This document shows positions 35,967 through 52,519 of a stretch of DNA of 64,000 nt, piece after piece. Both the position numbers and the translations under genes were made by a program. Positions within the stretch are counted from its first letter, which is position 1, and each line of letters opens with the position of its first letter. Origin of the DNA: Roseivirga ehrenbergii (lineage in GTDB: Bacteria > Bacteroidota > Bacteroidia > Cytophagales > Cyclobacteriaceae); assembly GCF_001593005.1 (NCBI RefSeq), contig NZ_LQZQ01000049.1, positions 62,001-126,000 of the forward strand. The letters run 5' to 3'. The notes under the pieces are model-generated. The model was not told the origin of the DNA. It saw only the letters and a program-made list of their open reading frames with translations, and made no database searches.

Positions 35967-36548
35967 TCAATTCCTATTTAAATACACCTTTGTTCTTTCA
36001 GGTAATTTTGTGGTGCTGTATTCAAAGTCAGAGTTCCACTCAATTGTACAAATGTTAAAGCCATCGAAGCATTCTGTGGGAGTGAGACCATAAGCTCTTA
36101 ATGTAATTAGAAAGCGCTCTAAGCCACCAAAAGGATAGTTGCCAGTGGAGAATTCAATAATTCCCGATTGTGCATTGAGCTTTTCAATTTTGTCCATATC
36201 CACTTCGAAATCGAATTCTAAATAATTGAAGATGGACAGTGTTTCTTGAATGCCAAGTGCACCTAGTTTCTCATTGTCCACTTGAAGGTAGCTTTGCAGA
36301 AATTCATTTACATAGGCTGGTATTATGGCTAAGTACCTGCGCTCTTCTGGTGCTTGGTCTAAAAATGTAGATAGTTTTTCTACCGTATCATCTACTTCCG
36401 CTTGCGTCATGCCACCCCAATCAAACTCGGGGCCGTCCTCTTCTTCAAATTCAAATTCAGGCTGTCTTACCTTAACCATGTGGTCATACAGCTTTTCAAA
36501 ATCTTGATAATTTGAACTGTCTTGAATATTGAATTTGATGTAAAGCAT
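35967..36548 (-). CDS. Protein of unknown function
   Basis: I do not recognise the family of this 193-aa protein. It starts MLYIKFNIQDSSNYQDFEKL and has an acidic stretch (EFEFEEEDGPEFDW), a helical middle and a C-terminal beta-rich half (LERFLITLRAYGLTPTECFDGF). There is no signal peptide or membrane segment, so it is probably cytosolic. It lies alone between the helicase (convergent) and the paralogue operon; a 113-base gap separates it from the last paralogue stop. Confidence 0.7.
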   Translation of the reverse strand: MLYIKFNIQDSSNYQDFEKLYDHMVKVRQPEFEFEEEDGPEFDWGGMTQAEVDDTVEKLSTFLDQAPEERRYLAIIPAYVNEFLQSYLQVDNEKLGALGIQETLSIFNYLEFDFEVDMDKIEKLNAQSGIIEFSTGNYPFGGLERFLITLRAYGLTPTECFDGFNICTIEWNSDFEYSTTKLPERTKVYLNRN

Positions 36549-36661: not shown

Positions 36662-37366
36662 CTACACCGCTACCTCAGGCATATACTTTGCCCATTTTTC
36701 GTTGACCGTAGCAATGCCCCATTTCATTAAATCATAATTGATGAAAACAGTAAGTGAGGTTAATACAAAGCCAGCTATAAATACATAAGGAAAAGCTGAA
36801 GAGCCTTGCTCATAAAGTGTTTTTGTTACTAAACCGAACCCTTGGCCAAAAACGAATTGAGTTATATATAGGCCATAAGTGCTCATTTTAGCAAAACTAG
36901 ATCGCTTTTCCCATCGCTTCATTTGCTTTCTAAATATGGAATAAGGAATTACTGCTAAAAGGAATCCATAGATAAGGAAGCCCGATTGGAGAAACATTCC
37001 TTTATCGTTTTGTGGGTATTGGGTTAGAAGAAAGTAGCCTATTATAGCCAATCCCATGGGTATAAGTATTTTGGAACTGTTGAAATAGGATAGGAGCTCC
37101 TTGAAGAATTGTCGCTTGAAACGCTGAAGCAAACCGCCTTCGATTGATTCTGCCAAAGTAGATAAGCCGTAAATCCCGAAGGATGCATGAGCTTTGGTAA
37201 TGGCCAAATCAAAGTTCATATCTGGCTTTTCTTCAAGCAATGCTTCTACCTTACTGGCCATATGGTCAAGTGCTTCCATTTCCACTTCAATGGTGTTAAA
37301 GCCACGCTTGTTGATAAAAGTCCTAATGGCTGCAATCTGTTCTTGAGTAAGAGGTGTACTAGGCAT
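36662..37366 (-). CDS. Paralogue 7 of the PadR-linked membrane family
   Basis: The 234-aa protein has a soluble helical N-terminal domain of about 90 aa with the invariant pair in EALDHMASKVEAL (Asp34-His35). Four hydrophobic helices follow (about 105-125, 130-150, 170-190, 200-220). Residues 19-65 are nearly identical to paralogue 6, also in DNA, while the membrane half is unrelated in detail. It overlaps paralogue 6 by 8 bases and is the last gene of the run. Family function is unknown; the architecture suggests a small sensory or scaffolding membrane protein. Confidence 0.85.
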   Translation of the reverse strand: MPSTPLTQEQIAAIRTFINKRGFNTIEVEMEALDHMASKVEALLEEKPDMNFDLAITKAHASFGIYGLSTLAESIEGGLLQRFKRQFFKELLSYFNSSKILIPMGLAIIGYFLLTQYPQNDKGMFLQSGFLIYGFLLAVIPYSIFRKQMKRWEKRSSFAKMSTYGLYITQFVFGQGFGLVTKTLYEQGSSAFPYVFIAGFVLTSLTVFINYDLMKWGIATVNEKWAKYMPEVAV

Positions 37367-38039
37367 ATTTTAAATATTTCTCTTCAGTGAAAGCGATTGC
37401 CTCTTTTATAATGGCAAAGTTGATCAAAGCTATTAAACTGAGCTTCAGGATTACGAATGTAAATATGATTTGTAATAATAGTGGAGACAGTGTGCCAAAT
37501 TCAAGTACGAACCTCGTGATGTAGAATATGATTAGGCTTGCTCCACTGGTTCCTGCAAAAGTGTTTGATATCACAAACGATCTCTTGCCCCATTTCCTTT
37601 TTGTTTTTATGAAATAGATAGATGGAAGAATGATCATGGTTAGGACAACCGAAAAAATGAAAACAACCATAGCTTCTTCAGACCATGGTAGGTTTAATAA
37701 AAATTTTTGAATGAGAAATGCGACTGAGATTATGGCTAAAGTTATTAAAAGCTTAGGGCCTTTTAGATAATCGCGGAGTACAGCCTTGCGGATTTTTTTA
37801 GATCGCTCTTTACACCCAGCAAAAATAGCTTCTTCAAAAGTAGCAAAACCAAAAATGCCTAAGTCTGCATGAGCTTTGGTAATGGCCAAATCAAAGTTCA
37901 TATCTGGCTTTTCTTCAAGCAATGCTTCTACCTTACTGGCCATATGGTCAAGTGCTTCCATTTCTACTTCAATGGTATTGAAGCCACGTTTGTTAATAAA
38001 CGCCTTGATTTGGTCAATTTGATTAACGGTAAGCGACAT
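37359..38039 (-). CDS. Paralogue 6 of the PadR-linked membrane family
   Basis: The 226-aa protein has the same N-terminal domain (Asp31-His32 in EALDHMASKVEAL) and then hydrophobic helices (LLITLAIISVAFLIQKFLL, AMVVFIFSVVLTMIILPSIY and others). It overlaps paralogue 5 by 17 bases and paralogue 7 by 8. The DNA encoding residues about 14-60 matches paralogue 7 almost base for base. No catalytic motif other than the Asp-His pair stands out. Confidence 0.85.
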   Translation of the reverse strand: MSLTVNQIDQIKAFINKRGFNTIEVEMEALDHMASKVEALLEEKPDMNFDLAITKAHADLGIFGFATFEEAIFAGCKERSKKIRKAVLRDYLKGPKLLITLAIISVAFLIQKFLLNLPWSEEAMVVFIFSVVLTMIILPSIYFIKTKRKWGKRSFVISNTFAGTSGASLIIFYITRFVLEFGTLSPLLLQIIFTFVILKLSLIALINFAIIKEAIAFTEEKYLKYA

Positions 38040-38667
38040 GGTTTTTGATGTTTTTATAGTGCTTTTTTATTACGTTAAAGGCCAAATACAGTCCAGTGAA
38101 AATGATGGCGAAGTAGATTGGATAATAAAACGGTGTTGTTTTTAAAGAAGTAGGAACAAGCCTTTCATCTACAAATCCGAAAATGATGATGTATAGAAAT
38201 ACGCCATTACAACTTCCAATAAAACTCGTGTAGTTATAGGGTTTGAACCTCCTATCAAAAAGGGATATAAGCAGAGGTAATAATATTGCGCAAATACTCA
38301 GTGTTTTAAAGAGTTTAATAAGCCATATGGCATCTGTTAGCCCGTTAAAAATAAGGTATAACGAAAAGAACAGTCCAACTGGAATAAAAGCGTGAACAGT
38401 TTTTAACATGTTCATTAATTCTTTAAAAATGGATTTATGTACACCGTATGTGGCTGCTTTGGTTCTTGAACGCTGAATGGACCGGCAATTAATGGACTCA
38501 ATGATTTGGCTAAAAGCAGAAGAGAATGAAATTTGGTCCTCATCCATTTTAGTTTCAATGGCCGATGCAATGTGGTCAACTAGCTCATGCTGTACATCAT
38601 AGTACCAAATATTTTGGTCCTTTACATACGATCTAATATGCTCAATTTGATAGTGCGCTAGTTTCAT
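38023..38667 (-). CDS. Paralogue 5 of the PadR-linked membrane family
   Basis: The 214-aa protein starts MKLAHYQIEHIRSYVKDQNI with the Asp31-His32 pair in ELVDHIASAIETK. The linker after it lacks the FGG motif of paralogues 1-4. About four membrane helices follow (FIPVGLFFSLYLIFNGL, LFKTLSICAILLPLLISL, NGVFLYIIIFGFV, YPIYFAIIFTGLYLAF). It is 12 bases after paralogue 4 and overlaps paralogue 6 by 17 bases. Confidence 0.83.
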   Translation of the reverse strand: MKLAHYQIEHIRSYVKDQNIWYYDVQHELVDHIASAIETKMDEDQISFSSAFSQIIESINCRSIQRSRTKAATYGVHKSIFKELMNMLKTVHAFIPVGLFFSLYLIFNGLTDAIWLIKLFKTLSICAILLPLLISLFDRRFKPYNYTSFIGSCNGVFLYIIIFGFVDERLVPTSLKTTPFYYPIYFAIIFTGLYLAFNVIKKHYKNIKNHVAYR

Positions 38668-38679
38668 ATCAGTTCAACT

Positions 38680-39393
38680 TTAAGGTTGGGTAATAAGCTT
38701 AGAGGTGATTTTTTTGTTTATGGTGGTTTTACGCCAAATTATTTCAAGGCAAACCCAACCATATATAATTACCAGAAAAGTGACTATAGAAAGCATTGTG
38801 GTGTTCGTTTCTATAGTTTTCAACAAACTAAAATGCTCACCATATAAAATTCGACTTGTGATATCAGGTAAACCCTGTACAACTCCCACAAAGAAAGCGG
38901 TTAAAATAACCACCATTTGATTTGTATAGCTACTATAGAAAGGAAGTTTTTGTTTTTTGCATTTTAGTTTAAAGCGCCAGCTGACAATATTTGAAATAAG
39001 GAAAGGCAAACAAGAGGCTAATACTAGTAATGTAGAGATGGACGATTTCGAAAACCGCATTTCGTTAAGTAATAGAATTATACCCAGAAGAAGAGTACTC
39101 TTTAATAATCCTACTGGTGTTGAAAAGAAGGAAATGTAATTCCTAAGTGCTTCCTTGTAAATTCCCTTTCTTACAAACCTTCTCTGCCTCTGTATTTCTA
39201 CAAGTATTCCTTGTTCTCCACCAAATCTTGGGGGCATAACCACTTCTAAGAACTCCTGAATACCCAATGATTGGTCTGCTCTGTCACCATACGCTGTTGC
39301 AATGTGGTCATACAGTTCGTTGTAGAACTCTACCTCATCAACCTCCAAATCTGCAAGGTACAGCTGTATGGCTTTCGCTTCTAGTGCTGTCAT
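38680..39393 (-). CDS. Paralogue 4 of the PadR-linked membrane family
   Basis: The 237-aa protein has the pair Asp29-His30 in NELYDHIATAYG and the linker motif PPRFGGEQGI, then membrane helices from about residue 105 (LLKSTLLLGIILLL, LLVLASCLPFLISNI, MVVILTAFFVGVVQGL, LSIVTFLVIIYGWVCLEI). It overlaps paralogue 3 by 4 bases. It is the most diverged of the four copies with the FGG motif. Confidence 0.84.
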   Translation of the reverse strand: MTALEAKAIQLYLADLEVDEVEFYNELYDHIATAYGDRADQSLGIQEFLEVVMPPRFGGEQGILVEIQRQRRFVRKGIYKEALRNYISFFSTPVGLLKSTLLLGIILLLNEMRFSKSSISTLLVLASCLPFLISNIVSWRFKLKCKKQKLPFYSSYTNQMVVILTAFFVGVVQGLPDITSRILYGEHFSLLKTIETNTTMLSIVTFLVIIYGWVCLEIIWRKTTINKKITSKLITQP

Positions 39394-40076
39394 GCCACCT
39401 CCAGTTTAAAGATGAACTGCTCTTTCGTAAGCTTTAGGCAGGTAAAGCCATAAAGTAGTGCAAAAGCACATAGGAAAGTACTTAGCCAGATGTTTTCCGA
39501 GATGAAATGTTTAAACACATCTCGACCAATAACCACAGGCACAATTAGGTTTCCGAAGATATTCATTAATGAGAAAGGCAAATGAACGAGCAACATCAAT
39601 GAACTATTCAGGTCGGAGTTTCTATAATTTCTATTATTCCTTTTACAGTCTCTGTGAAAACTGATTGCACCGTAGGCTAATATGATGAAAGGTAATAGAA
39701 AGCCTAAGGCAAGAGTAGCCACTATAGTAAACTTAGTTCCGAGTTGAATAAAGCTGGTTTGAACGAGAATGAAGCTTACCATTACAATACCAATTGCAGG
39801 CCAACCAAACAGGCTAAAGAAGATTTCCTTCATCCTCTTCCAGATCATTTTAGATCGTGCTTTTCTTTGGTTTAGCACTATTTTTTTGATTCCTTTTGCT
39901 CCTCCAAAAGAAGGTTGAATTACCTCTCTCAAATAAGTACTTACATCTTCTGGTTTGTCCTTTTCAATTGCTGTGGCAATATGATCATAAAATTCCTCGA
40001 AAGGCTCTTGATGTCCAATGCCTACACCCTTGAGGTACTTCACCAATATGTCGTGCTGTTCGGTAGTTAGGCTCAT
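39390..40076 (-). CDS. Paralogue 3 of the PadR-linked membrane family
   Basis: The 228-aa protein has Asp31-His32 in EEFYDHIATAIEKD and QPSFGGAKGIKKI, followed by four helices (FFSLFGWPAIGIVMVSFIL, VATLALGFLLPFIILAYGA, LVHLPFSLMNIFGNLIVPV, STFLCAFALLYGFTCLKL). The N-terminal third is almost identical to paralogue 2 at protein and DNA level. It overlaps paralogue 2 and paralogue 4 by 4 bases each, consistent with translational coupling. Confidence 0.86.
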   Translation of the reverse strand: MSLTTEQHDILVKYLKGVGIGHQEPFEEFYDHIATAIEKDKPEDVSTYLREVIQPSFGGAKGIKKIVLNQRKARSKMIWKRMKEIFFSLFGWPAIGIVMVSFILVQTSFIQLGTKFTIVATLALGFLLPFIILAYGAISFHRDCKRNNRNYRNSDLNSSLMLLVHLPFSLMNIFGNLIVPVVIGRDVFKHFISENIWLSTFLCAFALLYGFTCLKLTKEQFIFKLEVA

Positions 40077-40759
40077 CTCACTGTCAATTTAAACGTGAAC
40101 TTCTCTTTAAAAAGTTTAAGACAGGTAAAGCCAAATAACAAGACTAGTGTAGAAAAACATACGGTTATTGCTGGGTAAGCGGTTAGAAACTGACCGAAGT
40201 TATCTCTGCCAATAAATATTGGAATCAGGAGGTTTCCTACAATACTCAAGGCATTAAATGGAATCACCATAAGCAATAGAATTGAAGAGTTCAGGTCGTT
40301 AGTTGTATAAGGTAGTTGCTGCTTTTTACAATCCTTGTAAAATGAAAATACACCGTACATCATGACGGAGGCTGGAATAAAGAGACCTAAAATTGCTGCG
40401 TAAATGAGTACATACTTTTCGTCAAATTGATTTGATAAGGTTTGGAGTAATATAAAAGACACCATAACAAAGCCTATGGCTGGCCAGCCAAATAGGCTAA
40501 GGAAGATTTCTTTTGCCCGTTTCAAAATTGCAATCCTCCTGATTTTACTCTGTTCATTCACTACATTCAGCATGCCCTGAACCCCACCAAAAGAGGGTTG
40601 AATTACCTCTCTCAAATAAGTACTTATATCTTCAGGTTTGTCCTTTTCAATTGACGTAGCAATATGATCATAAAATTCCTCGAAAGGCTCTTGATGTCCA
40701 ATGCCTACATCTTTGAGGTATTTCACCAATATGTCGTGCTGTGCGGTGGTGAGGCTCAT
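40073..40759 (-). CDS. Paralogue 2 of the PadR-linked membrane family
   Basis: The 228-aa protein is the closest relative of paralogue 3 (MSLTTAQHDILVKYLKDVGI; Asp31-His32; QPSFGGVQGM). It has the same length and helix layout but its membrane half is clearly diverged (AAILGLFIPASVMMYGVF; LLMVIPFNALSIVGNLLI). The pair probably arose by tandem duplication, with later exchange of the N-terminal part. It overlaps both neighbours by 4 bases. Confidence 0.86.
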   Translation of the reverse strand: MSLTTAQHDILVKYLKDVGIGHQEPFEEFYDHIATSIEKDKPEDISTYLREVIQPSFGGVQGMLNVVNEQSKIRRIAILKRAKEIFLSLFGWPAIGFVMVSFILLQTLSNQFDEKYVLIYAAILGLFIPASVMMYGVFSFYKDCKKQQLPYTTNDLNSSILLLMVIPFNALSIVGNLLIPIFIGRDNFGQFLTAYPAITVCFSTLVLLFGFTCLKLFKEKFTFKLTVR

Positions 40760-41454
40760 GTGGTCAGCAGTTTGGTTTTGAAATCGTGCTTCATTACGGT
40801 GAGCATGGTGTAGCAGTAAAGCGCAGCAAGTCCAATTAGGGTAGCCTGAAACAAAGGTACTTCAGTGTAGAGTTGGTTAAACTCGATATGATTTTCTAAA
40901 CTTCTGTATGTAAGGTGGCCTAAATTATAGAGCAAATACAGTGAAATCGTTGAGTAAGTCATAATAATACTGTTGCGCAGGTTCCTGTAATAACCAGGCT
41001 TATTTTCTCGAATCGATTTTTTGAACTGATAGTGTTTGTGAATAACAACCGCCATAGGCAAGGCAAAGCAGGCAATAATTAAACTGACCATTATGGTTAG
41101 GTTTTGAGTGGTTGCCATTAAGCCCCAAGCGGCAAGGAATATGCCCAAAGAATAAAGCAAGTTTATTCCTTTAAAAGCCGATAGGCCAGTAATGAACACT
41201 CGTTTGCTGACATTCCAGCCAATGGCTTTTTCATGTTTTTTGATCACCTTTTTGAAGCCGCCTACACCGCCAAATTCAGGCTGAAGACGATGCCAAATAT
41301 GTGTTTTAATCTCCAACTCAGGTTCTTTTTGGAGTTGTGTCTCATAGGAGCACACAATATGATCGTAGAACTCCTCGAATAACTCTTGAGAATCAATGTC
41401 TAAATGCTGAAGGTAGAAGACTACCTGCTCGTGCTGCTCTACCGTTAATTTCAT
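40756..41454 (-). CDS. Paralogue 1 of the PadR-linked membrane family
   Basis: This 232-aa protein is the first paralogue after the PadR gene. It has MKLTVEQHEQVVFYLQHLDI, Asp31-His32 in EEFYDHIVCSYE, and QPEFGGVGGFKKVI. Membrane helices follow (YSLGIFLAAWGLMATTQ, IMVSLIIACFALPMAVVI, SIIMTYSTISLYLLYNL, LFQATLIGLAALYCYTML). Its ATG overlaps the padR stop by 4 bases, so regulator and first membrane protein are translated together. This links the family to PadR control. Confidence 0.86.
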   Translation of the reverse strand: MKLTVEQHEQVVFYLQHLDIDSQELFEEFYDHIVCSYETQLQKEPELEIKTHIWHRLQPEFGGVGGFKKVIKKHEKAIGWNVSKRVFITGLSAFKGINLLYSLGIFLAAWGLMATTQNLTIMVSLIIACFALPMAVVIHKHYQFKKSIRENKPGYYRNLRNSIIMTYSTISLYLLYNLGHLTYRSLENHIEFNQLYTEVPLFQATLIGLAALYCYTMLTVMKHDFKTKLLTT

Positions 41455-41789
41455 CCCATACCTAATTTAGGGTTCAACAACTTTTGTAAATTCAATAGGA
41501 ACTCTTCCAGTTCGGCCACTTTGGTTTGGGCTTCGGCATTACCTTCTTTGGTAAGGGAGTAGTATTTTCGGATGCGATTATCTACCTTTTGTGTTTCGGT
41601 AGAAAGCATTCCTTCTGCTTCTAGTTTATGAAGGGTAGGGTATAAGGCACCTTCCGTGATTTTGAATTCACCCGCGGTAATTTCCTTTACGCGTTGTGTG
41701 ATTTCATAACCGTACATTTTTTCGTTCTCTTCCAGCAGCTTGAGAACAATGGTGGCCAGACTTCCTTTTAATAGTTTACTCGATGACAT
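41451..41789 (-). CDS. PadR family transcriptional regulator
   Basis: I start at the ATG at 41789 (MSSSKLLKGSLATIVLKLLE); an upstream TTG at 41795 is in frame but unlikely. The 112-aa winged-helix protein has EKMYGYEITQRVKEITAGEFKI (helix-turn-helix) and EGALYPTLHKLEAEGML (wing), then a dimer helix. PadR proteins are usually repressors of membrane or detoxification genes. It overlaps paralogue 1 by 4 bases. A perfect 24-bp palindrome lies 15 bases upstream of the start, so autoregulation is likely. Confidence 0.92.
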   Translation of the reverse strand: MSSSKLLKGSLATIVLKLLEENEKMYGYEITQRVKEITAGEFKITEGALYPTLHKLEAEGMLSTETQKVDNRIRKYYSLTKEGNAEAQTKVAELEEFLLNLQKLLNPKLGMG

Positions 41790-41803
41790 ACACAAGTATA
41801 CAT

Positions 41804-41827
41804 AATTTTCTTATGCATAAGAAAATT
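41804..41827. promoter_or_regulatory. Perfect 24-bp palindrome, probable PadR operator
   Basis: AATTTTCTTATG (41804-41815) and CATAAGAAAATT (41816-41827) form an unbroken palindrome. TACAT-type words flank it (TATACAT at 41797-41803; TATGTA at 41831-41836). It lies directly upstream of padR in the leader or promoter. PadR regulators usually bind such symmetric AT-rich sites. Confidence 0.65.
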
Positions 41828-41911
41828 GGGTATGTAAAATTTTATCGTGGTTAAGAGATTAACATTCCGAGTCTAACTTTCTACTTACTCAGTTGTCAAT
41901 AAAAAAATCAC

Positions 41912-49577: not shown

Positions 49578-52184
49578 TTATTCGCTTCTTAGGCTCTTTA
49601 CTGGGTTTGCCTTGGCGGCCTTAAAGGTTTGTAAGCCTACGGTAAGCCATGCAATGACGAGCGCAGCAAGGCCAGCCAATAAGAAATACCAGATTTCAAG
49701 ATCGATATGATAGGCGAATTCATCCAACCATGATTTCAGTAAGAAATAGCTTAAAGGAAGCGCAATCAGAATGGCCAATACAATCATTTGGTTAAAATCG
49801 ACAGAGAGTAACCTAACGATGTTTGAATTACTGGCGCCTAGCGCTTTTCTAACTCCAATTTCTTTAGAGCGTCTTTCTGCGGTAAAAGCAGCCAATCCGA
49901 AAATGCCTAGGCAAGAAATGATAATGGCTATTCCTCCAAAGTATTTTGAAAGTGTGGAAATACGTTCTTCAGAAGCATATTGAATGGCGTAGTCTTGGTC
50001 TAAAAAGGTGTAATTGAAATCGAAACCAGCATTGTATTCTTTGTAAAGCTTTGAGATTCTATCAATGGTATTGCGCTCTTGTCCGGGTTCAATCCGAACC
50101 AAAATATTCATCATTCTTTGGTCTTCTAGTTTGAAGAACATTGGGGTGATTGGCTCATGTAAAGAACTGAAATTAAAGTCTTCCACCACACCAATGATTT
50201 GCATGTCTTTGCCCCAAAGCCTTACGGTTTGCCCTATTGGATTGATCAACCTCATTACTTTAACTGCCTCCTGATTTATGATGAGTTTAGAAATGTCTGT
50301 GGTTAGTTCTCTAGAAAAACTTCTGCCTTCAATAATATCTACGCCAAGCGTTTCTATAAAATCATAAGTCACCGTCATATTACCGAATCGGGTTTGCACG
50401 TCCTCGTTTTTTTCTGGCCAGTGCACATCGGTAGTGTAACTTCCGCCACTAATAATGGTATGTTGCGTACCGCCTGCATTGATTACTCCAGGGGTGTTTT
50501 TGAGTTGATCGATAAAGGTGTCTAGGTTCTCTGTTACTTTGCCTTCGTTGGCAAAGAGAATCAGGTTTTCCTTATTGTAACCTATGTTCTTGTTCTGTAC
50601 GAATTCAATTTGTTTTGAAACCACCAGTACAGCTGCAATGAGAACAACAGATAAAGTAAACTGAAAAACAACCAAGCCTTTTCTCACCCAAAGTTCACCC
50701 AATGAATTCTTGATTTTCCCTTTAAGAATGGTAGTTACTTTGAATCCCGACAAGTAAAGCGCAGGATAACTTCCCGCTATCAATCCAGTGATTACTAGAA
50801 TGGCGAAAAGCAAAATGAGCAAATTAGAACTGAGTTGAAAAACGATCTGCTTGCCCGTAATCACATTGAACTGAGGAAGAATAAGCACAACCAACACCAA
50901 GGCTACTAGAATAGAAATGAAGGTCATGAGAAATGCCTCTTCCAAATACTGCCAAATTAGGGCTTCGCGTCTGGCGCCTATGGCTTTTTTAACGCCAATT
51001 TCTTTGGTTCTTCGTGAGGCTTTGGCCGTAGAAAGGTTCATAAAGTTGATGCAGGCGATCAGCAGAATGAAAATTGAAATAATAGAGAAGAGTCTTACAT
51101 ATTCTATTCTACCACCCGATTGTACACCATTTTCATAATTGGAGTACAGGTATTTATCGGAATAGGGGCGAACGAACGGAGTTACATTAGATTTAGGCGC
51201 TTTTTCCTTTACAAATGGTGCAAGCTTTTCATTGAGCTGGTCAACATCTGTTCCTTTGGCCAATTTGACATAGGTAAGCGCATTATAATTGCCCCAATGT
51301 TTACCTTCGCCCAGCATATCAGCGAAGATATCGAAGGGTAAAACAAAGTCGAATTCTTCAGTAGAATTGGCGGGAACATCTTCGAAAACTCCCGAAACCT
51401 GAAGGTCTTTGCTGAACTCCAACACTTGCCATTTTATGTTTTGGCCCATGGCTTTTTCTGGGTTTCCAAATAAGCTTGTGGCCAAGCTTTCAGAAATAGC
51501 AATGGACTCTTTGTTTACTAGTGCGCTTGTGGCTGAGCCATAAATCAGCGGAAAGGTGAAAAGCTCGAAATAGCGTTTTCCGGCAAATCTGCCCGAAGCT
51601 TTAATCGTTTTCTCAGAAGTTGTTAGTGGCATTTTACCGAACCAAAAGGAGGGGGTGGCCTGTAAGCCAATTTCTATTTCCGGTACTTCTTGCTCCAAGG
51701 CTTCGGCCAGTATGGCTTGCGTGTCTTCTTGCGTATTGAGGGTGCCCGACTCTTCATGGTGAAGCATGACCTGAAAAAGCTGGTCATCGAGCTTGTGGAA
51801 TTTATCTACGCTTAATTCATCGGTTACCCAAAGGTAGATGAGTAGGGTGCAGGCCAATCCGGTGGAAAGGCCAATTAGATTGATTAGAAATGCGCTTTTG
51901 TAGCGCAGAAAATTTCTGTAGCTGACTAATAAGTTGTGTTTGAACATACCGTAATAATTGAGTTTTTGATTTCCTTCTAATTTTCGGATTATGCTGGGCC
52001 TGAACAGCTTTAGCACGTCTTTCTTGAATAACCTTTTTGCCTTTTGTACTCCGTGGTTTTCGGCATTCGCCTCAAACCGTTCTAATAAATCACCTTCAAT
52101 GTCTTCTTTGTACTCGGCTCTGCAGAACCACCTGAAGAACCTGAGCCAAAACTTTGAAGGCTGAATATTGTCATGTGACCGCAT
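49578..52184 (-). CDS. ABC transporter permease with N-terminal prefix domain
   Basis: The 868-aa protein has two MacB/FtsX units: helices near residues 95-115 and three more at 375-460, then a second set ending with the C-terminal trio. The first 80 residues (FRWFCRAEYKEDIEGDLLER, FEANAENHGVQKAKRLFKKD) form a soluble helical prefix domain like those on Bacteroidota permeases next to PadR genes. Large extracytoplasmic domains lie between helices. It probably exports or processes envelope molecules with an ATPase encoded elsewhere. It follows padR by 5 bases. Confidence 0.9.
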   Translation of the reverse strand: MRSHDNIQPSKFWLRFFRWFCRAEYKEDIEGDLLERFEANAENHGVQKAKRLFKKDVLKLFRPSIIRKLEGNQKLNYYGMFKHNLLVSYRNFLRYKSAFLINLIGLSTGLACTLLIYLWVTDELSVDKFHKLDDQLFQVMLHHEESGTLNTQEDTQAILAEALEQEVPEIEIGLQATPSFWFGKMPLTTSEKTIKASGRFAGKRYFELFTFPLIYGSATSALVNKESIAISESLATSLFGNPEKAMGQNIKWQVLEFSKDLQVSGVFEDVPANSTEEFDFVLPFDIFADMLGEGKHWGNYNALTYVKLAKGTDVDQLNEKLAPFVKEKAPKSNVTPFVRPYSDKYLYSNYENGVQSGGRIEYVRLFSIISIFILLIACINFMNLSTAKASRRTKEIGVKKAIGARREALIWQYLEEAFLMTFISILVALVLVVLILPQFNVITGKQIVFQLSSNLLILLFAILVITGLIAGSYPALYLSGFKVTTILKGKIKNSLGELWVRKGLVVFQFTLSVVLIAAVLVVSKQIEFVQNKNIGYNKENLILFANEGKVTENLDTFIDQLKNTPGVINAGGTQHTIISGGSYTTDVHWPEKNEDVQTRFGNMTVTYDFIETLGVDIIEGRSFSRELTTDISKLIINQEAVKVMRLINPIGQTVRLWGKDMQIIGVVEDFNFSSLHEPITPMFFKLEDQRMMNILVRIEPGQERNTIDRISKLYKEYNAGFDFNYTFLDQDYAIQYASEERISTLSKYFGGIAIIISCLGIFGLAAFTAERRSKEIGVRKALGASNSNIVRLLSVDFNQMIVLAILIALPLSYFLLKSWLDEFAYHIDLEIWYFLLAGLAALVIAWLTVGLQTFKAAKANPVKSLRSE

Positions 52185-52189
52185 GACGA

Positions 52190-52519
52190 TTAATCGTTAA
52201 GTGCTATTTCTGGAATGGCTTTCCACAAACTTAGGCGCTGTTCTTTGGCTTCGCGAAGCGTAGTTTTGCCTAAACTGGTAACGGTAAAAAACCGTTTTCT
52301 TTTTCCGCCCCGCACTTTGGTGGCTTCGCCAAATTCAGAAGTCAGAAATCCTTTGTCTTCCAATCTTCTTAATACTGTTTGCAAAGCACCAATGCTTACC
52401 GAGCGCTCCAAGCGCGATTCCATTTCATCGATAATCGCTACTCCGTAGGCCTCACCATGTAAAATGGCTACCGTTAAGAGCACAATTTCCTCGAATTCAC
52501 CAAGGTTATGTTTACCCAT
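52190..52519 (-). CDS. PadR family transcriptional regulator
   Basis: The 109-aa winged-helix protein has LGEFEEIVLLTVAILHGEAYGVAIIDEME and SVSIGALQTVLRRLEDKGFL, then the wing RGGKRKRFFTVTSLGKTTL. It lies 5 bases upstream of the permease in one leftward operon. It resembles the PadR gene at 41451, but the wing is more basic. It probably represses its own operon. A -7 box was not found. Confidence 0.92.
   Translation of the reverse strand: MGKHNLGEFEEIVLLTVAILHGEAYGVAIIDEMESRLERSVSIGALQTVLRRLEDKGFLTSEFGEATKVRGGKRKRFFTVTSLGKTTLREAKEQRLSLWKAIPEIALND

Follow-up and report, generated by a model that had tools for sequence, protein, structure and literature searches.

One PadR gene ahead of seven membrane paralogues in Roseivirga ehrenbergii: an array that looks like an enlarged membrane-signalling system

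What might one regulator do with seven variants of the same membrane protein? The question is raised by a stretch of 64,000 nucleotides from Roseivirga ehrenbergii (contig NZ_LQZQ01000049.1, positions 62,001 to 126,000; the window), in which a PadR gene and seven membrane paralogues (copies 1 to 7) form one minus-strand run, mostly joined by overlaps, from 41789 down to 36662. Each paralogue has a helical N-terminal domain (N-domain) followed by a membrane part. The array looks like an enlarged version of a little-studied membrane-signalling system and not like a set of enzymes. We think it fairly probable that it is an autoregulated membrane-signalling operon that works like the HAAS-PadR dyad, expanded on its membrane side. 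In our best reading, several exchangeable membrane sensors would feed one repressor via a common docking domain, with both the binding of PadR and the sensed signal presumed.

The PadR gene and its predicted operator

The open reading frames (ORFs) of the window bore out the original prediction, made from the letters of this DNA, of seven genes in one direction that mostly overlap by 4-17 bases, headed by a PadR gene that overlaps the first copy by 4 bases. Overlaps of 4 bp were found at four junctions (PadR/copy 1, 1/2, 2/3 and 3/4), copies 5/6 and 6/7 overlapped by 17 bp and 8 bp, and copies 4/5 were separated by a 12-bp gap.

A profile built from the seven copies was used to find relatives; at E<=0.001 it matched 29 of 60 genomes from the host's taxonomic family, the host's own among them. 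Stretches from 20 of the 28 other matching genomes were examined, one from each, together with a second locus of the host genome. The results showed that a PadR gene preceded the N-domain genes on the same strand in all 21 loci, with 1 to 11 copies. The second host locus (L016, C1:245853-246409) holds a PadR gene and one 195-aa N-domain protein, with an operator-like site scoring 14/18 at PadR. Among 71 named loci (Roseivirga, Algoriphagus, Belliella, Cecembia, Pedobacter and others), PadR lay upstream on the same strand in 66. Of the five exceptions, L162 has no PadR (see below), L187 has a PadR remnant at the contig start, L137 is cut by the locus edge, and L123 and L150 begin 551 and 411 bases before the first detected copy, so that their linkage cannot be judged. 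Across the phylum, the N-domain profile A2 matched at least 34 of 395 genomes, with at most 13 candidates scored per genome. Of 30 phylum loci, 23 had PadR before the copies, two (L072 and L084) had it after them, and five, including the window's own, showed only further copies up to the locus edge. Some genomes recur between the sets of 21, 71 and 30 loci. The PadR linkage foreseen by the original prediction was thus found widely, and it is not constant (L162, L072 and L084; see below).

A 21-bp operator-like site, ATACNNAANTTTCTTATGTAT, lies before PadR, and its most symmetric form is the inverted repeat ATACATAA-N5-TTATGTAT. The window and 66 named loci supplied 67 PadR upstream regions for scoring; 65 of them matched the site at 15 or more of its 18 informative positions, vs 0.15% of Markov shuffles, the pattern having been derived from the same 67 regions on which it was scored. 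None of 2656 random windows of the same loci contained the site. In 70 loci, all 74 sites with at least 16 of 18 matches lay no more than 200 bases from a PadR start. Only two sites with two or fewer mismatches were present in the host genome, and together they form the palindrome at 41798-41833. A wider PadR regulon in this genome was considered and rejected, with no further site at two or fewer mismatches and ten sites at three mismatches vs 13 for a backward control pattern, i.e., no excess. Ten further loci were hand-picked for the operator check, plus the window's other PadR gene (52190-52519). Nine of the ten scored 14 to 18 of 18 at PadR, and the window's other PadR gene scored 10/18 and is without this operator. 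Because the operator is conserved before PadR, and in the host genome is present, at two or fewer mismatches, only at this promoter, PadR is most likely a dedicated autoregulator, as judged from sequence.

The N-domain as a module and its closest relatives

The N-domain is a module of its own, which in other Bacteroidota also stands on ABC permeases and predicted M23 peptidases. It heads ABC permeases with MacB_PCD and FtsX domains adjoining PadR (L064 and L065), predicted M23 peptidases next to PadR (L060 and L061) and a 396-aa protein that has no Pfam match (L066). Operator scores were 15/18 and 18/18 for the ABC-fused loci L064 and L065, respectively, and 16/18 for both M23-fused loci. Since the site co-occurs at PadR in these loci, the three elements PadR, operator and N-domain stay together, and what is fused to the N-domain changes from locus to locus. 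The joining of a regulatory domain to a cell-wall hydrolase in L060 and L061 is an unusual pairing.

We predicted the structure of copy 7 with AlphaFold2 from an alignment that contained the last copy of each of 68 named loci (L135, L185 and L187, the other three of the 71, were left out). The model (predicted local distance difference test score, pLDDT, 88.2) showed helices at residues 8-19, 26-46 and 52-61, a break at FGxxG, and a helix at 67-96, followed after the N-domain by four long helices (98-116, 119-144, 157-186 and 192-228). The N-domain modelled alone from 84 rows (pLDDT 89.2) had much the same helices. Judged by hydropathy alone, copies 2-6 each have four membrane regions, and copies 1 and 7 only three. 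Apart from this count in copies 1 and 7, the common layout that had been proposed, a soluble helical N-domain followed by about four membrane helices, held.

No Pfam or NCBIfam model covers the seven copies, whose matches were all sub-threshold and differed from copy to copy. No sequence match to solved structures fell below E 0.28. No PADLOC defence model matched the seven copies at E<=0.01, and the window PadR had three weak PADLOC matches (E 4e-4 to 4e-3). A known enzyme or transporter family was rejected on the inconsistent sub-threshold matches, and a defence-system identity was rejected as the copies have no PADLOC model.

We then compared 84 N-domains with the family libraries. NF038403 (perm_prefix_1) was the commonest NCBIfam match, with 15 members at E<=0.1 (best 5.5e-6) vs four members for the next families; the commonest Pfam family also covered four members. 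PF22564, the Pfam model of HAAS, was not among the 25 families listed, of 82, for these N-domains. Against ten perm_prefix_1 domains, hhalign gave 93.5% (E 2.3e-7) for profile A2 and 88.9% for profile A5, and the PadR controls gave at most 0.2% (A2 or A5 vs PadR) and 0.3% (PadR vs perm_prefix_1). The ten domains came from 14 places above the NF038403 cut-off, from which L104 and L113 (short contig ends), L105 (a bridging frame) and one place that had no locus were excluded. A 910-aa frame (G015:C13) exceeded the NF038403 cut-off (31.6 vs 30 bits) and also matched the seven-copy profile (E 2e-4). The window copies themselves had no NF038403 match at E<=1 and so do not reach its curated cut-off. 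On these profile comparisons, the N-domain is related to perm_prefix_1.

The closest described system is the HAAS-PadR dyad, in which a gene for a PadR-like winged helix-turn-helix protein adjoins a helical domain; it has been proposed as an alternative to two-component systems, with HAAS passing a signal to PadR (PMC11237479, mSystems 2024). In the passages of that paper drawn on here, the helical domain is N-terminal to varied multi-transmembrane (TM) parts, and the HAAS set includes FtsX/MacB permease fusions and uncharacterised 6TM, 4TM and 2TM domains. The window family is similar in its adjacency to PadR and in having a helical domain ahead of multi-TM or other outputs (AlphaFold2 model; MacB_PCD/FtsX and M23 fusions). 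It differs in having up to 11 tandem copies and an operon with no other gene. HAAS is described there as three helices, the third kinked at GxP, whereas copy 7 has its FGxxG break after helix 52-61, with glycines and no proline. Because perm_prefix_1 aligns while PF22564 fails, and because the HAAS set of the paper has similar fusions, we describe the array as working like a HAAS-PadR dyad and as a relative of perm_prefix_1, and do not file it as a HAAS member. The statement that no named system has this composition therefore stands in part: no Pfam or NCBIfam model names the paralogues, but the dyad, as far as those passages describe it, and the perm_prefix_1 kinship provide a named context.

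Two further comparisons are close. ADOP permeases (TIGR03434) with perm_prefix_1 (NF038403) and PadR (TIGR03433) resemble the present family in that its N-domain also heads MacB_PCD+FtsX permeases beside PadR, and differ in that the seven copies have a membrane part of about four helices in place of the permease. In Listeria, according to the passages considered, the PadR protein LltR mainly regulates its own operon, which is derepressed about 150-fold in the mutant and holds the DUF1700 membrane protein Lmo0600, whose overproduction harms growth in the cold; LstR likewise mainly controls its own operon (PMC6624303). LftR has a functional link with the DUF1048 protein LftS (PMC4517056), and LftR additionally controls the distant transporter lieAB. 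In LltR-Lmo0600 and LftR-LftS, a PadR protein controls its own operon, as is likely here, and the operon also encodes a member of a family placed within HAAS by PMC11237479. However, these operons hold one such protein vs seven in the window, and LftR reaches distant lieAB, whereas no second operator was seen for the window PadR in the host genome.

The dyad principle is thus already known. What is new is the tandem arrangement in 1 to 11 copies, together with the operator and the domain-limited exchange described below; the open-licence literature searched yielded none of the three. Also new are near-identical N-domain tracts between copies with strongly differing membrane parts, and one cassette apparently replaced between sister species.

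Exchange between the copies and what it may mean

We compared the DNA of the copies in ten-codon blocks. Copies 2 and 3 were 90-100% identical in codons 1-50 and 83% in codons 51-60, after which identity ranged from 33 to 77% per block. Copies 6 and 7 were 90-100% identical in codons 21-60 and 29-67% beyond codon 70. Where the amino acid was the same in both copies, the codons were also identical at 44/55 positions in the N-part and 34/72 in the C-part for copies 2/3 (p = 2e-4), and at 40/49 and 14/41, respectively, for copies 6/7 (p = 5e-6).

The same comparison was made for 391 within-array pairs, from which pairs with too few aligned codons had been dropped. N-domain DNA identity was at least 75% in eight of them, from six arrays, and the membrane parts of all eight were 41-55% identical; no pair reached 75% in the membrane part. 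Fisher p was <0.05 in six of the eight strong pairs (not in L117 7/8 and L128 1/2). The tract reached codon 60-70, the end of the N-domain, in five of the eight and stopped near codon 40-50, inside the N-domain, in the other three (both L128 pairs and L144), and none ran into the membrane part. Over all 391 pairs the gap was modest, with a median amino acid identity of 29% in the N-part vs 23% in the C-part, and N identity equalled or exceeded C identity in 292. A recombination signature limited to the N-part is thus present in these sequences.

Comparison with sister species gave a complementary picture. R. seohaensis DNA was 92.3% identical over 41203-41835 (PadR and the copy 1 N-domain), and identity resumed at 88.5% over 40656-40794. 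Because 40795-41202 did not align to R. seohaensis while both flanks did, the membrane cassette of copy 1 appears, from these alignments, to have been replaced between the two species; by codon comparison the N-part of copy 1 was 89% and the C-part 52% identical in nucleotides. The operon flanks were about 93.7% identical on the upstream side and 89% on the far side, and window copy 7 was 93% identical to R. seohaensis. In R. echinicomitans, the N-domain of copy 4 was nearest to R. seohaensis copy 7 (84%), the counterpart of window copy 6, and its membrane part was nearest to window copy 7 (88%).

Copy number had suggested hetero-oligomers or graded specificity to the original prediction. Homogenised N-domains and diverging membrane parts are consistent with several sensors sharing one partner, and may also be explained by plain gene conversion at the most similar stretch. 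In the reading we favour, PadR would sit on the palindrome before its own gene and, to judge from the operator, repress the operon. The cytosolic helical N-domain of each paralogue would dock PadR, with E31, D34 and H35 (copy-7 numbering) as probable structural or interface residues, and the membrane part of about four helices may report membrane perturbation. A signal in any copy would change its N-domain and loosen PadR from the operator, and the array would be made. The only output that the genome shows is the membrane proteins themselves, which probably serve as protective agents too. The copies would recombine within the N-domain or at its edge, and the membrane parts would diverge and be exchanged; homogenised N-domains would be expected because all must fit one PadR. 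Repression, docking, sensing and the direction of the switch are steps that we infer.

Several results weigh against this reading. The contact between PadR and the N-domain is reached indirectly. The seven copies had no PF22564 match at E<=1, and the N-domain profiles gave at most 3.7% by hhalign against 17 PF22564 domains of the phylum (11 above the cut-off), a weak test, as perm_prefix_1 against PF22564 also gave only 7.6%. Direct HAAS membership by profile is therefore unsupported by this comparison, in which perm_prefix_1 and PF22564 do not align either. With either the N-domain or the whole protein as query, Foldseek returned no PDB match at E<=0.001. The operon has no further gene, and so no PspC or Toastrack partner; the rest of the genome was not searched for them. 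L162 had no PadR within 8 kb of the array, and in L072 and L084 (two genomes of one genus) the order was reversed, with the membrane gene before PadR and an overlap of 4 or 1 bp. The operator had no match in two of the 67 upstream regions, L146 and L183, whose PadR ORFs are unusually long and may have a misplaced start, and it was lacking in L066 (10/18 only). Between species, the membrane part was more similar than the N-domain for window copy 6 and R. seohaensis copy 7 (98% vs 92%), and for window copy 2 and R. echinicomitans copy 1 (92% vs 88%).

A bolder form of the favoured reading is a repertoire of exchangeable membrane receptors, in which one repressor would read many multi-helix sensor cassettes via a shared docking domain, recombination inside that domain or at its border would replace or swap the cassettes, the dock would be kept uniform by gene conversion, and strains would differ in what they can sense. 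We regard it as tentative, and rate it slightly lower because three of the eight tracts stop before the border of the N-domain.

Direct ligand binding is common among PadR proteins; LmrR, for example, itself senses a small hydrophobic compound. The rival explanation that follows this pattern holds that the membrane proteins are effectors only (e.g., membrane-protective, efflux-accessory or immunity-like), that PadR itself senses a small hydrophobic compound and turns their production on, and that the N-domain is for assembly between copies and not for docking to PadR. The commonness of direct ligand binding among PadR proteins would suit it, as would the position of the sole operator in the host genome before membrane genes. 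In the Listeria work considered, moreover, derepressed Lmo0600 has a phenotype of its own (PMC6624303). However, it leaves unexplained why the N-domain stays beside PadR even where it is fused to an ABC permease or an M23 peptidase, and why the N-domain alone is homogenised between copies. We hold this explanation to be possible but unlikely.

That the array is a drifting tandem duplication whose copy number has no functional meaning, with tracts left by ordinary gene conversion at the most similar stretch, appears improbable to us. The wide range of copy numbers among relatives would fit it, the generally greater similarity of the N-domain would favour conversion there, and the tracts that end inside the N-domain agree with it; but the majority of strong tracts reach the end of the N-domain without entering the membrane part, and multi-copy arrays recur in many genera.

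If the favoured signalling reading is correct, the array is a compact test bed in environmental bacteria, combining a single regulator and a single operator with several natural variants that have a domain in common, for a type of signalling on which we met little experimental work in the literature searched. Two questions could be put to it directly: does PadR read its membrane partners through contact, and can a bacterium keep a swappable set of membrane-stress sensors?

The Asp-His pair and other features

The seven-row alignment kept only M1, E28, D31, H32 and F144 in all copies (E28, D31 and H32 in copy-1 numbering). It confirmed the Asp-His pair that had been noticed in every copy and the FGGxxG linker noticed in four, copies 1-4; copies 6-7 have [FL]GI[FY]G, and copy 5 has neither. 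The equivalent residues of copy 7 (E31, D34 and H35) sit in helix 2 of the model. D31 and H32 did not vary among 42 N-domains drawn from different architectures, a set in which one gene is represented twice. The pair was present in all 239 N-domains of the named loci, 238 by pattern and the last, a cut ORF, at residues 21-22; these loci were found with peptide patterns containing LDH and A-F-G-type stretches, so that the anchor copies carry these residues by construction, which does not apply to the other copies of each array. In a pre-scan set of 17 rows, 13 of 14 invariant columns lay within residues 1-67, and the remaining one was Y228. The membrane part had no invariant residue across 69 sequences, in which Y228 alone reached 90%. 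First-copy and last-copy membrane parts were nonetheless homologous over 65 arrays (hhalign 96.9%, E 1.4e-10; reversed-sequence control 0.7%), and with the family profile recurring across genomes, the copies are not unrelated proteins that share chance motifs.

A catalytic or metal role for the pair, as first suggested, is unlikely because the pair is kept whatever the N-domain is fused to, ABC permeases and predicted M23 peptidases included; three of the ten perm_prefix_1 domains (L102, L103 and L114) also have E-x-E-D-H at the equivalent position. An identity of the paralogues as membrane enzymes or metal binders that use Asp-His as their active site, to which the invariant D and H and weak sub-threshold matches to Acyl_transf_3, HGSNAT_cat and heliorhodopsin might point, is very improbable, given a pair placed in the helical N-domain, a membrane part that has no invariant residue, and matches that vary from copy to copy.

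Table 1. Features of the PadR-led array in the window (positions of the window; limits of the N-domain tracts are approximate).
Feature	Position	Strand	Basis
Predicted PadR operator, palindrome of two overlapping opposed ATACNYAANTTTCTTATGYAT copies directly before the PadR start codon	41798..41833	.	0-mismatch sites, own-genome pattern scan
PadR-family winged-helix regulator (ATG start; reading frame open from TTG, then 41451-41795)	41451..41789	-	PF03551, E 3.5e-22
Copy 1, 232 aa, N-domain and membrane part	40756..41454	-	ORF, alignment, hydropathy
Copy 1 membrane cassette, apparent replacement	40795..41202	-	No blastn alignment (E<=1e-10) to R. seohaensis locus, both sides align
Copy 2, 228 aa	40073..40759	-	ORF, seven-row alignment
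Copy 2 N-domain tract near-identical to copy 3, codons 1-60	40580..40759	-	Codon-block DNA comparison
Copy 3, 228 aa	39390..40076	-	ORF, seven-row alignment
Copy 3 N-domain tract near-identical to copy 2, codons 1-60	39897..40076	-	Codon-block DNA comparison
Copy 4, 237 aa	38680..39393	-	ORF, seven-row alignment
Copy 5, 214 aa, without FGGxxG	38023..38667	-	ORF, seven-row alignment
Copy 6, 226 aa	37359..38039	-	ORF, seven-row alignment
Copy 6 N-domain tract near-identical to copy 7	37860..38009	-	Codon-block DNA comparison
Copy 7, 234 aa	36662..37366	-	ORF, seven-row alignment, AlphaFold2 structure
Copy 7 N-domain tract near-identical to copy 6	37178..37327	-	Codon-block DNA comparison

The window PadR also matched TIGR03433 (9.8e-21), under the cut-off of that model. 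Directly past the array, a 193-aa protein (35967-36548, minus strand) had no NCBIfam match at E<=0.01; its DNA aligns with the R. echinicomitans locus and not with the R. seohaensis locus. Elsewhere in the host genome (C1:218043-218517), a further PadR gene is followed by an 851-aa frame with a weak PF22564 match (E 0.0026, below the cut-off). About 8 kb from the array, the other PadR gene of the window adjoins an 868-aa ADOP-like ABC permease (49578-52519 together, minus strand), whose N-terminus matches NCBIfam perm_prefix_2 (E 8.6e-15): the same plan with a different prefix domain.

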